From positions 1 to 64,000 of the forward strand of contig NZ_JAUKPO010000021.1 of assembly GCF_030503435.1 (NCBI RefSeq): a stretch of DNA of 64,000 nucleotides. Reading direction: 5' to 3'. This DNA comes from Rhodocytophaga aerolata. GTDB lineage: Bacteria; Bacteroidota; Bacteroidia; Cytophagales; 172606-1. Numbering within the stretch: the stretch's first letter is position 1; every line of letters starts with the position of its first letter. The translations under genes were made by a program, and so were the position numbers. The notes beneath the pieces are model-generated. The model ran no database searches and was not told the origin of the DNA. It saw only the letters and a list, made by a program, of their open reading frames with translations. Below are positions 8,488 through 19,106 of this stretch, one piece after another.

Positions 8488-9118
8488 GCAGATCCCGTAA
8501 GTGTTTAAAATTAAATCTTTTAAATGGCACTAGTTGGCCGGTATAAACGGTCGTCTTGTAGTGAGCAAGCAAATGAATAAGTGCTTTCTGATGATTATCT
8601 GTGCTCAGTTCTACACTCGTAAATCTGATATTTTCTTTACTATGTTCAGGCAACTCTCCTTCCATGTATATAGTCTCGTTTATGTCTACCCGCTCTACCT
8701 CATAGCTTTTGTTATCTGGCAACTCAAGCGTTCTGCCTGCTTTTAACTTTGCAACGACCGATGCATTGAGTAAAAACTCTTTGCGTTGCAGCATCATATA
8801 GTCTCCATAAGCTTCCGCTAACCAGCCATACGCCCTTTCAGAAAACAATACTGCCCATAGGTTGCGGTAAAATTTTTCGAAGCTATATTGTATCCGACCG
8901 ATCACTTCAAATGGTTTGTCTTCAAACTGACCCATTGTGCCTAATCGCAAAGGAGACATATCTTCAAGCACAGCTTTTTCCTGTTGTAAAAACTGAGCTG
9001 TACCCTCTGACTTCTGATAAGAGCAGACACATCCAGGACAAATAAGTATAGAAGAAACAGAAGTTTTATAATTTATCTGTTTGGCACAAACCGGACAATG
9101 GAGCGAACTTACTGGCAT
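8474..9118 (-). CDS. DUF4178 protein with zinc ribbon, soluble
   Basis: A 214-aa soluble paralogue of the next gene. It opens with a zinc ribbon (CPVC near residue 8 and CPGC near residue 28) and continues with a DUF4178 core (DKPFEVIGRIQYSF followed by YGWLAEAYGDY). It has no membrane helix. The start lies 19 nt after the speD stop, and the gene end overlaps the longer DUF4178 gene by 14 nt, so the two are probably made together and may form a heteromer. The function is unknown; the link to polyamine synthesis comes from gene context. Confidence 0.82.
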   Translation of the reverse strand: MPVSSLHCPVCAKQINYKTSVSSILICPGCVCSYQKSEGTAQFLQQEKAVLEDMSPLRLGTMGQFEDKPFEVIGRIQYSFEKFYRNLWAVLFSERAYGWLAEAYGDYMMLQRKEFLLNASVVAKLKAGRTLELPDNKSYEVERVDINETIYMEGELPEHSKENIRFTSVELSTDNHQKALIHLLAHYKTTVYTGQLVPFKRFNFKHLRDLRDWI

Positions 9119-9137
9119 ATACTTATATTTTGCAACA

Positions 9138-9491
9138 CTACCTCTTCACTTCTTCCTGTGTATGGCGAGTAGTCTTAAAGAATGCAAGTGTATCCTCAAA
9201 TAGAGCCCTGGTAATGGTGTCATTGTCTTTTTTAAAGTTAGACAAGTATATATCAAAAGTAGCTAGACCATACTCAGGCCAGCTATGAATAGCAATATGT
9301 GACTCTGTGAGACAAATAACACCTGTAAAGCCTGCATCCGGGAAGCTATGAAATACTTCGCCTACACTCGTAAGACCATACTGCTGAATTTTATCTATAA
9401 ACAATGCTCTAACAGGCTCAAAATCCCTTAGTAGGGCATATTGATCCGTGTAAATTTCTGCAAGGATATGTAATCCTGGATTGTACTTCAT
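9138..9491 (-). CDS. speD: S-adenosylmethionine decarboxylase proenzyme (class 1B type)
   Basis: Decarboxylates S-adenosylmethionine to give the aminopropyl donor for spermidine-type synthesis. The self-cleavage site is visible as LTESHIAIHSWPEYG: cleavage between Glu and Ser makes the pyruvoyl cofactor, and the downstream His and the C-terminal Phe-Asp-rich strand are also conserved. The length of about 117 aa matches the small bacterial SpeH/SpeD form. I chose ATG 9491 (MKYNPGLHILAE); a GTG at 9500 would add three residues. It is the first gene of the nine-gene minus-strand operon and would supply decarboxylated SAM to the membrane-anchored synthase three genes after the DUF4178 pair. Confidence 0.93.
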   Translation of the reverse strand: MKYNPGLHILAEIYTDQYALLRDFEPVRALFIDKIQQYGLTSVGEVFHSFPDAGFTGVICLTESHIAIHSWPEYGLATFDIYLSNFKKDNDTITRALFEDTLAFFKTTRHTQEEVKR

Positions 9492-15803: not shown

Positions 15804-16845
15804 ATGAACACATTTGCTCACCCTCAAACTTATGCTTTTATCATAGGCACAGATATTTCTAAGGAGAGCTTAGATGTATGCTTGATCCGAGTAGCAGATA
15901 AACAACTCTGCTATCAGAAATTCAACAATAATATGCAAGGTTTTCAAAAGATGAAACTTTGGTTAAAACAATATGGCTGTGAACTTGAGTCCGATACACT
16001 CTATTGTATGGAGCATACCGGATTATACACTAGAAGACTGGTCCATTACTTGTTAAGTAGGCAAGTCGCTGTCTGGTTAGAAACACCCTTGCAAATGAAG
16101 CGCAGTATTGGCCTTGCCAGAGGAAAAGACGATAAAATAGATTCAAGTGAATCGAGAATGATTCACACGCATTCCCAAATATGCTTTCCTACATCAAGAC
16201 AAAGCCATTTTAGTGAATCTAAGTGGACTAACACTGGAAAAGTTGAAAGACTTACAGATCAGTCGTAACCGGCTACTAAAAGCATTAAAAAGTATCAAAA
16301 CCACTGTCAATGAATTACTTTCTGTCGATACTGCTTCCGGTAAAACCATACAACAGCTTAACCGGGATGCGATTCGTGGATTAGAAAAGAGCTTAGAGCA
16401 GGTAGAAGAAAAGATCAGTGAATTTATCGAGCAAGATGAAGCCTTAAAGAAAAAGTACGATCTAGTTACTTCTATTAAAGGAGTGGGTAAAGTTTTAGCT
16501 ATTACCCTTCTGGTTTACACCCAGGGCTTTACTAAAATGGAAGATGGGAGAAAACTTGCCTGTTATTGTGGGGTAGCTCCATTCGAGTATAGAAGTGGCA
16601 CAAGTGTGTTTGGCAAAACAGGGGTATCCAAGTTTGCCAACAAAGAACTCAAACGGATCTTGCACCTGGTCTCGATGAATAGTATCCAATACAATGGCGA
16701 ACTGAAAGCGTATTTTAAGCGAAAGGTGGCAGAAGGCAAGCCCAAAATGAGTGTACTGAATGCTGTCCAGAATAAGCTCTTGCATAAGATTGTAGCTGTG
16801 GTCAAAAGAGGTACACCGTATGTAGAGAAATTGGATAAAATATAG
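15804..16845 (+). pseudogene. IS110-family transposase split by a 20-nt palindrome
   Basis: The N-terminal DEDD domain is readable from ATG 15804: GTDISKESLDV (Asp), CMEHTGLYTRRL (Glu), RGKDDKIDS (last Asp pair). The frame then enters an inserted palindrome at 16147-16166 and reads nonsense to a stop at 16266-16268. In the +1 frame the protein resumes directly after it (RIPKYAFLHQDKAILVNLSG) and continues through a coiled coil and the C-terminal Transposase_20 domain (VTSIKGVGKVLAITLL, CGVAPFEYRSGTSVFGKTG) to 16845. Removing 19 or 22 nt restores one frame of about 340 aa. Everything else is well conserved, so the disruption is recent or is bypassed in some way. Confidence 0.88.
16147..16166. 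repeat. 20-nt palindromic insert in IS110 transposase
   Basis: GTGAATCGAGAATGATTCAC: two perfect 7-nt arms (GTGAATC/GATTCAC) around GAGAAT. It sits at the point where the transposase frame breaks, between codons for DS and RIPKYA. The same design occurs at 18339-18358 in the IS91 transposase, with a covarying base pair in the arms. Confidence 0.85.
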
Positions 16846-16869
16846 CTAAAAACATTTGACTTACTCATA

Positions 16870-16962
16870 GATTTCGGAACAAAGCCACCCAGCGGCGTGG
16901 CTCGATGCGTTAGCACTGCGCTTCAGCAGCGTGCTGACCGGTTGTGGCCGATGTTGCACTAA
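16870..16962 (-). repeat. attC-like structured spacer (site B)
   Basis: Located between the IS110 and IS91 elements. It has several short inverted repeats, including AGCCAC/GTGGCT and an AGCAC/GTGCT hairpin whose loop region carries TGCGCTTCAGCAGC, similar to the loops at 20.53 and 21.09 kb. On the minus strand it begins with GTGCAAC, which matches in complement the TTGCAC at the cassette-like boundary near 19385. The symmetry is weaker than in sites D and E. Confidence 0.4.
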
Positions 16963-17021
16963 ACCTACGGTAGCTTTTGCAGAGTAAATAGAGAAGTTTG
17001 CAAAAAAGTAAACCAACACTT

Positions 17022-17921
17022 ATGCAAACTTCTCACACTCATGAGGCTACCCTTGTAGCCAGAGCCTGTTTAAATGTAGCAGGTTTCGCAGAACTGTACA
17101 ACCGCCTGGAAAAAAAGATGGTCATTTCAGGTAAAAGCCTAAGCACCTTGGAAAATTACAGCCGGCACATGGCTCATATTGCCCTGCACTACAATTGCCT
17201 GCCCACAGCCCTGGATGCCGAACAGATTGAGGACTATCTGTTTTTGATCAAGTCCCAAAAAGCTCCTTCGGATTCCTATTTCAAACATGCTGTTTATGGC
17301 CTGCGCTTTCTCTTCCGCCTAGAGGGGCTTGATGAACGGGCTATTGAACTGCCCTCTCTCAAAAGGGATAAAAAGCTGCCGGCTGTCTTGAGCAAAGCCG
17401 AAGTCAAGGCTTTGCTTAAAGCCCCTACGCTTTTAAAACACCGCCTCTTACTGGCTATCATTTATGGCTGTGGCCTGCGTTGCAGCGAGGTGAGAAACCT
17501 GCAGATCAAAGATGTGGATTTAGACCGGGGTATGCTCCACATCCGCCAAGGAAAAGGACGTAAAGACCGCTACGTGCCTTTGAGATCGATGCTATGCCGA
17601 GGAATCAAAACCTATCTGGATGCAGAAAGACCCAGACACTACTTGTTCAATGGCAAAGACTACCGTTCTCCCCTATCGGAAAGAGGTGTGCAGTGGCCAT
17701 TGAAAGAAGCTGTCAAAAAAGCAAAGATTCTCAAACCTATCTGTGTCCATACCCTGCGCCATTCCTATGCCACTCACTTGCTGGAAGATGGCATCGATAT
17801 CCTCTCTATCAAAGAACTCCTTGGCCATGAAGCTATTGAAACCACCCTTGTCTACCTGCACATTGCCCGTATCAAACCTGTGCTGTCTCATTGCCCCTTA
17901 GACACGCTCTATCAATCGTGA
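17022..17921 (+). CDS. Tyrosine recombinase associated with IS91 element
   Basis: A 299-aa tyrosine-type integrase with an N-terminal SAM-like core-binding domain (residues 15-105) and a catalytic domain holding all key residues: Arg in GCGLRCSEV, Lys in GKGRKDRYVPL, H-x-x-R in HTLRHSYATHLLEDG, His in LLGHEAIETT and the nucleophile Tyr in LVYLHIA. ATG 17022 was chosen over an upstream TTG. Its TGA overlaps the likely GTG start of the IS91 transposase (GTGA), so the two are coupled; such pairs are common in Bacteroidota IS91 elements. It lacks the extra motif between the second and third patches that marks integron IntI, so it is not the missing integron integrase. Confidence 0.92.
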   Translation: MQTSHTHEATLVARACLNVAGFAELYNRLEKKMVISGKSLSTLENYSRHMAHIALHYNCLPTALDAEQIEDYLFLIKSQKAPSDSYFKHAVYGLRFLFRLEGLDERAIELPSLKRDKKLPAVLSKAEVKALLKAPTLLKHRLLLAIIYGCGLRCSEVRNLQIKDVDLDRGMLHIRQGKGRKDRYVPLRSMLCRGIKTYLDAERPRHYLFNGKDYRSPLSERGVQWPLKEAVKKAKILKPICVHTLRHSYATHLLEDGIDILSIKELLGHEAIETTLVYLHIARIKPVLSHCPLDTLYQS

Positions 17922-19106
17922 GGCCGGCTTTTGAACTAGCTCAGCTCCTGCAAAGCCATTGGCTTACTCTTTGTAACTCTACGCATTTCAATTCCTATCA
18001 ATTACGCACCTTAGATGCGCTAGCAAGATGCCGAACCGCTTCGTTAGGTGGACATCTAGATGCCTGCTCAGCGTGTGGATTACTACGTATTTCCTATAAC
18101 TCCTGCCGCAACCGGCATTGTCCTAAATGCCAGAACTTGCAGAAAGAAGAGTGGATGCTTTCCAGAGAAGCAGAATTGTTGCCTGTCTCTTACTTTCATG
18201 TAGTCTTTACCTTACCTGACAGCATCAACCCCTTAGCCCTTGCCTATCCGGCAAAAGTCTACAACCTGCTTTTTCAAGCTGCCTGGCAGACCATACAAAC
18301 CTTTGCGGCAGACCCTAAACATCTGAGTGCCAAAGCAAGTGGATCGAGTTTGATCCACTATGATCGCTATCTTACATACCTGGGGGCAGAACCTCTCGCT
18401 CCATCCCCATCTGCATTGCATCGTGCCCGGTGGCGGCATCACCGGCAGTGGGAAATGGAAAAGGGCCAGAAGCCAAGGAAAGTTTCAGGACCCGATGCTG
18501 ACAACGTCTGCTGGTCCGTTTCCTGTTAAAGCGTTGAGCAAGGTCTTTCGAGCTAAGTTTGTTAAAGGAATAAGAAAACAGTTTCCAACCCTAGGGCAAA
18601 GCTTCTTTATCCCCTTATTTTCAAAAGAGTGGGTAGTATATGCCAAAAGGCCCTTCTTTGGCCCTAAGCAGGTGATTGAATATCTGGGTAGATATACCCA
18701 TAAGATTGCCATCTCTAATCACCGCCTGCTGTCCCATCAGGATGGCAAAGTCACCTTCGCCTACAAAGATTACCGGCAAAAAGGAGCCAAAAAGCAACTC
18801 ACGTTGACTGCCCTAGAGTTTGTCCGGCGTTTTTCCCTGCATATTCTCCCGAAGGGTTTTGTCCGCATACGCCACTTTGGGTTTCTCAGTGCAAAAACCA
18901 AAGTCTCTGCCCTGCCCTCGCTGATGGCAAGCTTTGGAAAATGTTTGGTGACTTTAACTCCAGAAGAAAAAAAGCAGAAAGCCAAAGAAAAGTTAAATGT
19001 AGATCCGCTTTGCTGTCCGGCTTGCAACACACCGACGATGGTCATTATAGGCTACTTCACCAGAGCCGGACCCACAGAGCAGTTGCCCTTTCAGGTAGGG
19101 ACCTGA
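17918..19106 (+). pseudogene. IS91-family HUH transposase split by a 20-nt palindrome
   Basis: A rolling-circle (Y/HUH) transposase. The first part has the N-terminal zinc-binding segment (CSACGLL, then CRNRHCPKCQNLQK) and FHVVFTLPDSINPLA. After LSAKA the frame meets a palindrome at 18339-18358 and is shifted; the right protein resumes in the +1 frame at 18360 with MIAILHTWGQNLSLHPHLHC, which holds the HUH motif, followed by the catalytic YLGRYTHKIAISNHRLL. Translation in the original frame stops at 18529. Removing 19 or 22 nt restores a protein of about 390 aa, normal for the family. The GTG start at 17918 overlaps the recombinase stop. Confidence 0.88.
18339..18358. repeat. 20-nt palindromic insert in IS91 transposase
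   Basis: GTGGATCGAGTTTGATCCAC: 7-nt perfect arms (GTGGATC/GATCCAC) around GAGTTT. Relative to the insert at 16147-16166, the arms differ by one compensatory pair (A-T to G-C) and the six-base centre keeps GAG and the last T. It enters the codon frame at the same phase and causes the same +1 shift. Confidence 0.85.

Follow-up and report, generated by a model that had tools for sequence, protein, structure and literature searches.

The window analysed here, 64,000 nucleotides (nt) of the Rhodocytophaga aerolata genome (contig NZ_JAUKPO010000021.1, positions 1 to 64,000), contains two transposase genes of unrelated insertion sequences (ISs), one of IS110 type and one of IS91 type, each split by a 20-nt palindrome. 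Our results suggest that this pair belongs to a class of mobile hairpins which are skipped as structural units during expression, with many of the host genes staying functional, and we give this reading a probability of roughly one half. A hairpin would insert into a transposase gene, usually replacing one native base, and during expression it would be passed over as a unit, either cut from the mRNA or jumped by the ribosome, so that an ordinary transposase is made. That skipping occurs, and at which level, we infer from selection on the interrupted genes and from the multiplication of interrupted elements. A first-pass annotation of the window had offered three explanations: a minute mobile palindrome, the footprint of an element or defence that targets transposases, and a sequence removed or bypassed during expression. 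The first is well supported by the data below, the footprint of a defence is possible, and skipping appears to agree best with what selection and copy number show.

Both palindromes were found letter for letter, GTGAATCGAGAATGATTCAC at 16147-16166 in the IS110-type gene and GTGGATCGAGTTTGATCCAC at 18339-18358 in the IS91-type gene, where 0.02 matches to the palindrome pattern (up to 3 mismatches) are expected by chance in the window. Both genes lie on the plus strand and are indeed split, with Pfam domains of the respective family on the two sides. The open reading frame (ORF) of the IS110-type gene runs from 15804 to the last codon before the insert at 16145 (PF01548, DEDD_Tnp_IS110) and resumes from 16168 to its end at 16845 (PF02371, Transposase_20), as seen in the alignment with the relatives L197, L088 and L198 (labels beginning with L, C and G are ours for loci, contigs and genomes). 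The IS91-type frame, open from 17891, has its 5' part with the zinc-binding domain at 17930-18337 (PF14319, Zn_Tnp_IS91) and its 3' part at 18360-19106 (PF04986, Y2_Tnp). Each palindrome starts at codon position 2 and 22 nt separate the good codons (16146-16167 and 18338-18359), both as first described; the first has arms of 7 nt around a centre of 6. Comparison with uninterrupted copies showed a single codon at each site, and thus the inserts are not normal family sequence. The codon is GAA in three IS110 relatives, two from the window's own genome G000 (L197 and L198) and one from the same-genus genome G004 (L088), and GGT in the IS91 copy L211 of G004. The net gain in these alignments is 19 nt at each palindrome. 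Across 326 aligned codons the window IS110-type gene is free of stops and of any further indel. Its nonsynonymous divergence (dN) from the relatives is 0.068-0.101 (3 pairs), against 0.074-0.086 (3 pairs) among the intact relatives themselves, and the synonymous divergence (dS) is saturated for most IS110 pairs. The IS91-type gene shows in-frame length differences and a near-terminal stop at codon 383, common to its relative L117. It also harbors a second insert, a 30-nt class A element (see below) detected by pattern search, GGACCCGATGCTGACAACGTCTGCTGGTCC at 18488-18517, which is absent from L117 and L211 and adds 30 nt in frame. As RNA, the palindromes fold at -7.2 kcal/mol (z -4.24, 16147-16166) and -9.8 kcal/mol (z -4.37, 18339-18358). 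The idea that the arms were copied from the flank (GATTCA adjoins the IS110 insert) was dropped by eye, as other inserts are without such a match.

The window pair is a small sample of a larger class of hairpin inserts in one bacterial family. Two main formats were found, hairpins of about 20 nt (7-6-7) and of about 30 nt (GGACC...GGTCC). A search of the 9.07-Mb own genome with GTGNATC-N6-GATNCAC, without mismatches, confirmed that further copies exist, giving 5 sites: the two in the window, one in an IS200-type tnpA on contig C127 and two in diverged IS3-type copies on C117 and C167, which are interrupted at the same place (these IS200 and IS3 labels were read from the translations). When the IS91 region was used as a DNA query, additional short matches to the 30-nt element appeared. 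Class A of the 30-nt format GGACC-N20-GGTCC, with the pattern GGACC-CGATGCTGACATCGTCTGCT-GGTCC, was found in 27 places in 4 of 8 genomes of the family, with none for the reversed-pattern control. Class B, GGACCT-p-AT-q-AT-p'-AT-q'-AGGTCC, where p' and q' are the reverse complements of p and q, was found in 30 places in 5 of the 8, with one place for its control. Other IS families are hit as well, and the design is not special to the two genes. Over 813,900 bases of own-genome contigs, picked for earlier search matches, 13 sites of the two formats were counted. Five are of the 30-nt form, for which three shuffles yielded 3, 1 and 1, and eight are of the 20-nt form, for which they yielded 0, 0 and 0. 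Contig C158 (385,700 bases covered), with only weak matches in the earlier search, has no site of either format. Geometry alone is not diagnostic: 7-6-7 palindromes number 110 genome-wide against 62-74 in four order-3 shuffles, and other loop sizes show an equal or larger excess.

Some loci of the class carry several elements or variant arms. A decayed IS200-type tnpA (L067, G000 contig C127, about 9080-9390) contains four different 20-nt palindromes in approximately 310 bases, three perfect and one with a mismatched pair. In a third genus, an IS982-like gene (L042, G005 contig C15, about 35034) has a 20-nt palindrome with the loop AGATAC, the same loop as L046 of G001 (GTATCT), with arms that differ yet are self-complementary. 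L046 and L269 (G001 contig C10, 175065-176074) hold one 20-nt and two 30-nt hairpins in transposase-like frames within 1 kb.

The pairing of the arms is conserved by covariation. In 12 hand-picked class B sequences, with the 32-nt variants and a weak G006 match left out, 97.0% of the stem cells are paired against 84.4% in shuffled sets, and double changes number 26 against 7.5; the class B search pattern leaves the covarying positions free. In 10 sequences of the 20-nt class, all set to one orientation, the values are 97.1% against 79.8%, with 13 double changes against 3.6. L259 (ATGAATC-TTTCTT-GATTCAT), whose loop does not fit, is not in this set, and neither is the L076 palindrome. None of 500 shuffles reached the observed covariation in either class. 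The pairing order in class B is crossing, p-q-p'-q', of pseudoknot type; alternative inner hairpins would give the same pairs. Nested RNA folds of five 30-nt elements gave z values from -1.47 to -4.18. At one site in the IS1182-like genes, one copy has a 30-nt hairpin and two others have 32-nt hairpins that differ by compensatory changes. At the same site L387 (G000 contig C123) has a 30-nt class B element nested within a 32-nt one, and therefore the elements insert into each other. Such differences in pairing and length between hairpins at a shared site imply that the elements have been in the genes for a long time.

The inserts are concentrated in transposase genes. Of the 13 own-genome sites, 12 lie inside transposase genes and one in an unassigned ORF. 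Among 49 distinct class A and B contexts, 48 were judged to be transposase: 39 have a match to a small IS3/IS91/IS110 panel on one side or both, three more have a Pfam transposase or integrase domain (DUF772, rve, IS66), one (L350) is a close relative of a Pfam-recognised transposase gene, and five others were judged by eye. Four of the 49 (L313, L314 and two in L317) come from loci picked for IS3 similarity. In 19 loci and others, every class A element was read as adjoining a transposase frame on one side or both, and four further class A matches lie inside copies of an IS3-type element. The labels IS1182, IS21, IS66, IS200, IS630 and IS982 are what we take these families to be, with Pfam backing in some cases only. 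Against empty sites, an element of N nt usually adds N-1, one native base being replaced, and exceptions exist. The same insertion site recurs among diverged copies; eight sites in the IS1182-like genes are each interrupted in 3 to 5 of 14 aligned copies. In the cases read, class A elements at one given site share orientation. The copies in unrelated genes and several genomes, the empty sites and the nested element show insertion at the DNA level.

Evidence that many interrupted genes remain under selection comes mainly from the IS1182-like alignment. This has 14 sequences, one of them standing for five identical copies, and nine are full length (three intact and six interrupted). The six interrupted copies carry 20 inserts, and all 20 break the frame, 17 by length and three in frame with a stop; tolerance of inserts as in-frame additions is ruled out for this set, since none of the 20 keeps the frame open. 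The net insert length varies from 16 to 47 nt. All three codon phases occur, and the phase shared by the window palindromes, which had seemed part of the design, is not a rule. Away from the inserts, the six copies have no other frameshift and one stop. For the 15 pairs in which both copies are interrupted the ratio dN/dS is 0.096-0.159, against 0.123-0.157 for the three intact pairs; the 18 mixed pairs span 0.070-0.161. L381 carries eight inserts and no stop in the 440 codons away from them. Under neutral drift, 0.1 substitution per site would have given about 6 stops (2.5% quantile 2) and 0.05 about 3 (quantile 0). A pair of IS21-type genes with the same insert contains no stops and has, on one side of the insert, dS of 0.67 with dN/dS of 0.11 and, on the other, dS of 1.03 with dN/dS of 0.06. 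Several interrupted transposases thus still look functional.

The second line of evidence is the multiplication of interrupted elements in G004, a genome assembled as one contig of 8,983,451 bases. An IS3-type element with two inserts is present there in eight copies, seven of which are identical over 1320 bp and lie in different places. The next full-length IS3-type relative, among the 40 of 95 candidates scored, is 68% identical and has the same orfA insert. An IS1182-like element with three inserts is present in five copies, one of them split by another insertion. The four compared are identical over 1566 bp, and two have their own 4-bp duplications. The right flank of one copy matches the left flank of another.

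A number of observations weigh against skipping. Four stops occur in the six full-length IS1182-like copies, at codon 93 (L373) and, abutting inserts, at codons 381 (L375 and L383) and 151 (L381); the selection count keeps only the L373 stop because codons near inserts were left out. Pairs of IS3-type genes with a shared insert have dN/dS of 0.06-0.72, several with stops, and the pairs L340/L344 and L068/L079, in wide windows crossing other inserts, have 0.15-0.65, also with stops. Pairwise dN/dS mixes old and recent branches, and recent loss of function is therefore poorly visible. Five partial or recombined IS1182-like copies carry hairpins, and four have other damage: two stops and a 1-nt deletion in L384; one deletion and one stop in L387; one deletion, one near-end stop and one stop at an insert in L385; and several lesions in the recombined L386. 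The interrupted IS200-type gene on C127 has other damage as well. Of the seven identical IS3-type copies, a 4-bp duplication is visible at two and none at five, and L236 differs by 1 nt at a position that is not part of an insert. Intact genes in G004 might act in trans, namely L318 and L319 of IS3 type and, for the IS1182-like element, L382, its next full-length relative among the 40 of 64 candidates scored, which is 70% identical and a possible donor. The statement that no closer uninterrupted copy exists covers those 40 of 95 IS3-type and 40 of 64 IS1182-like candidates. Class A elements occur across sites in both orientations relative to the gene, which would be unusual if they acted as RNA signals. 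Among 395 sampled genomes of the class, where G000 is the sole member of the family, pattern matches to class A, each with 3 mismatches, occurred in 24 genomes other than G000, whereas the reversed control matched 7. Two sites may lie outside transposase genes. One is a class-B-like hairpin beside further GGACC motifs with no recognised gene (L343, G002 contig C126, 73228-73257), either a degraded IS or a true non-IS site; the other is ATGGACC-GAGAAT-GGTCCAT in an ORF open across the palindrome and without Pfam match (L021/L076, G000 contig C115, about 23692).

Many of these points would also be expected if the inserts were young, recurrent, disabling insertions, either selfish or a brake on the ISs, with the interrupted elements copied by a transposase acting in trans or one from a copy that has since disappeared. 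We consider this quite possible, though less so than skipping. Identical hairpins occur at the same site in flanks diverged to saturation (L268/L313 and L372/L384), which also fits recent re-insertion, and at 5 of 8 shared sites an increase in identity is confined to the nearest 15 nt or so. Disabling insertion predicts both observations, which are equally compatible with a constrained element retained over a long time. The patchy presence of inserts among copies, the intact G004 relatives as possible donors and the decayed interrupted copies are likewise in its favour. Against it stand L381, where eight inserts are found with no other damage, the long residence implied by the compensatory and length differences, and the seven identical two-insert copies, for which no closer uninterrupted copy is present among those scored. 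It would also need a targeting rule for unrelated transposase families, and by eye the insert flanks showed no obvious one.

If skipping is accepted, its level is the next question. Take-off and landing triplets, a further difficulty for a ribosomal hop, agree at two or more letters in only one of the 20 inserts, so that a codon-matched hop is unsupported; a fixed codon phase is ruled out by the three phases observed, and 11 of the 20 gaps are without a zero-frame stop. Because length and phase vary freely and the triplets mismatch, there is a slight lean to excision from the mRNA over a hop of the gene 60 type, and for the same reasons the skipping machinery would recognise structure rather than codons. 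Removal from mRNA is thus slightly favoured over a ribosome hop with relaxed matching, and the data do not separate the two. In its most specific form, which we put forward tentatively and with less confidence than skipping itself, the elements would be intron-like: of 16-47 nt net, covarying as hairpins or pseudoknot-type structures, recurring at set places in the transposase genes of IS families that are not related, and cut out or jumped regardless of length and phase. The same insertion site in diverged homologues, as at the eight IS1182-like sites, is such an intron-like feature.

Known bypassing systems offer the closest comparison. The byp elements are mobile and hairpin-forming. According to reviews (PMC5009743, PMC3022353, PMC8211752), bypassing is known in T4 gene 60 (50 nt) and in 81 byps of Magnusiomyces mitochondria, and for Prevotella loescheii a translational hop of 29 nt was reported but not followed up. 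What these reviews describe of bypassing thus comes from a single phage gene, a yeast mitochondrial genome together with its relatives, and the Prevotella report. The inserts studied here resemble the byps of Magnusiomyces capitatus and gene 60 in being short, frame-breaking and hairpin-forming blocks, several per gene, within otherwise intact coding sequence (20 of 20 break the frame). They differ in their bacterial chromosomes, in their location in transposase genes of unrelated ISs and in their defined covarying 20-nt and 30-nt formats. They also differ in lacking the matched take-off and landing codons (1 of 20), and in that skipping is here a prediction. The hop in the plaA adhesin gene of P. 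loescheii shares with our elements a coding gap of 29 nt, the usual net gain of a 30-nt element, and a host in the Bacteroidota; unlike them, it concerns a single gene and no transposase. These hairpins and the 29-nt gain would suit classical bypassing, in which the peptidyl-tRNA detaches at the take-off codon and pairs again, past the hairpin, at a landing codon that matches it. With triplets that mismatch, variable length and phase, and the many gaps lacking a zero-frame stop, this classical mechanism is improbable.

Other miniature elements differ mainly in location or size. Rickettsia palindromic elements are palindromic mobile DNA in coding sequence, about 100-150 bp long and in frame; the inserts here have 20-30 nt and break the frame in all 20 IS1182-like cases, the one at 18488-18517 in the window being in frame. 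The small dispersed repeats (SDRs) of cyanobacteria (Elhai et al. 2008) are reportedly mobile repeats of a few tens of nucleotides. They are alike in mobility and size and differ in their cyanobacterial hosts, and we know of no claim that SDRs are skipped during expression. REPINs and SDRs are the nearest miniature repeats (PMC3116915). Our elements could be palindromes of the repetitive extragenic palindromic (REP) or REPIN kind, moved by a Y1 transposase of the REP-associated (RAYT) type and present in IS genes by accident, with no role in expression. Size (20-40 bp), palindromic form and miniature mobile nature agree (PMC3116915, PMC3733652), but REPs are by definition extragenic, whereas the inserts here lie in transposase genes (12 of 13 sites; 48 of 49 contexts), and this explanation is more improbable still than classical bypassing. 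Finally, chance, normal family sequence or assembly error can practically be dismissed, given the expectation of 0.02, the empty sites in relatives and the recurrence of the elements in a number of separately made assemblies, one of them a genome in a single contig; the first-pass annotation would have been refuted by normal family sequence, or by a lack of other copies together with assembly error, and neither was found.

Among the papers listed by literature searches, in a library lacking most subscription papers, none deals with inserts of this kind in transposase genes of bacteria. If they are skipped, few intervening sequences known would be smaller, and the skipping of coding inserts would have a form that is common in bacteria. 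Bacteria would then offer many natural examples of bypassing or splicing, and the routine tolerance of non-coding blocks inside bacterial genes, with its machinery, would be directly testable. Even without skipping, they would remain mobile DNA of very small size with a striking bias to transposase genes, which bears on the restraint of ISs. Ordinary annotation would label the interrupted genes as pseudogenes.

Further observations concern the neighbourhood of the inserts. In the window, an uninterrupted tyrosine recombinase gene (16998-17921, plus strand; Phage_integrase, PF00589, PF13495) lies directly 5' of the IS91-type gene. Taken with the 7-6-7 layout, this neighbour would make a recombinase core site a conceivable reading of the palindromes. 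In the orfA of IS3-type elements of G001 and G004 (L266, L279, L280, L287, L288, L313, L314 and L232), class A elements are located directly 5' of a run of A in several diverged copies; the A run in IS3 elements is a -1 frameshift site. Two chimeric IS remnants (L274 on G002 contig C153 and L353 on G001 contig C3) have unlike parts of IS3-type genes joined at a hairpin, as if the hairpins mediated recombination between IS copies.

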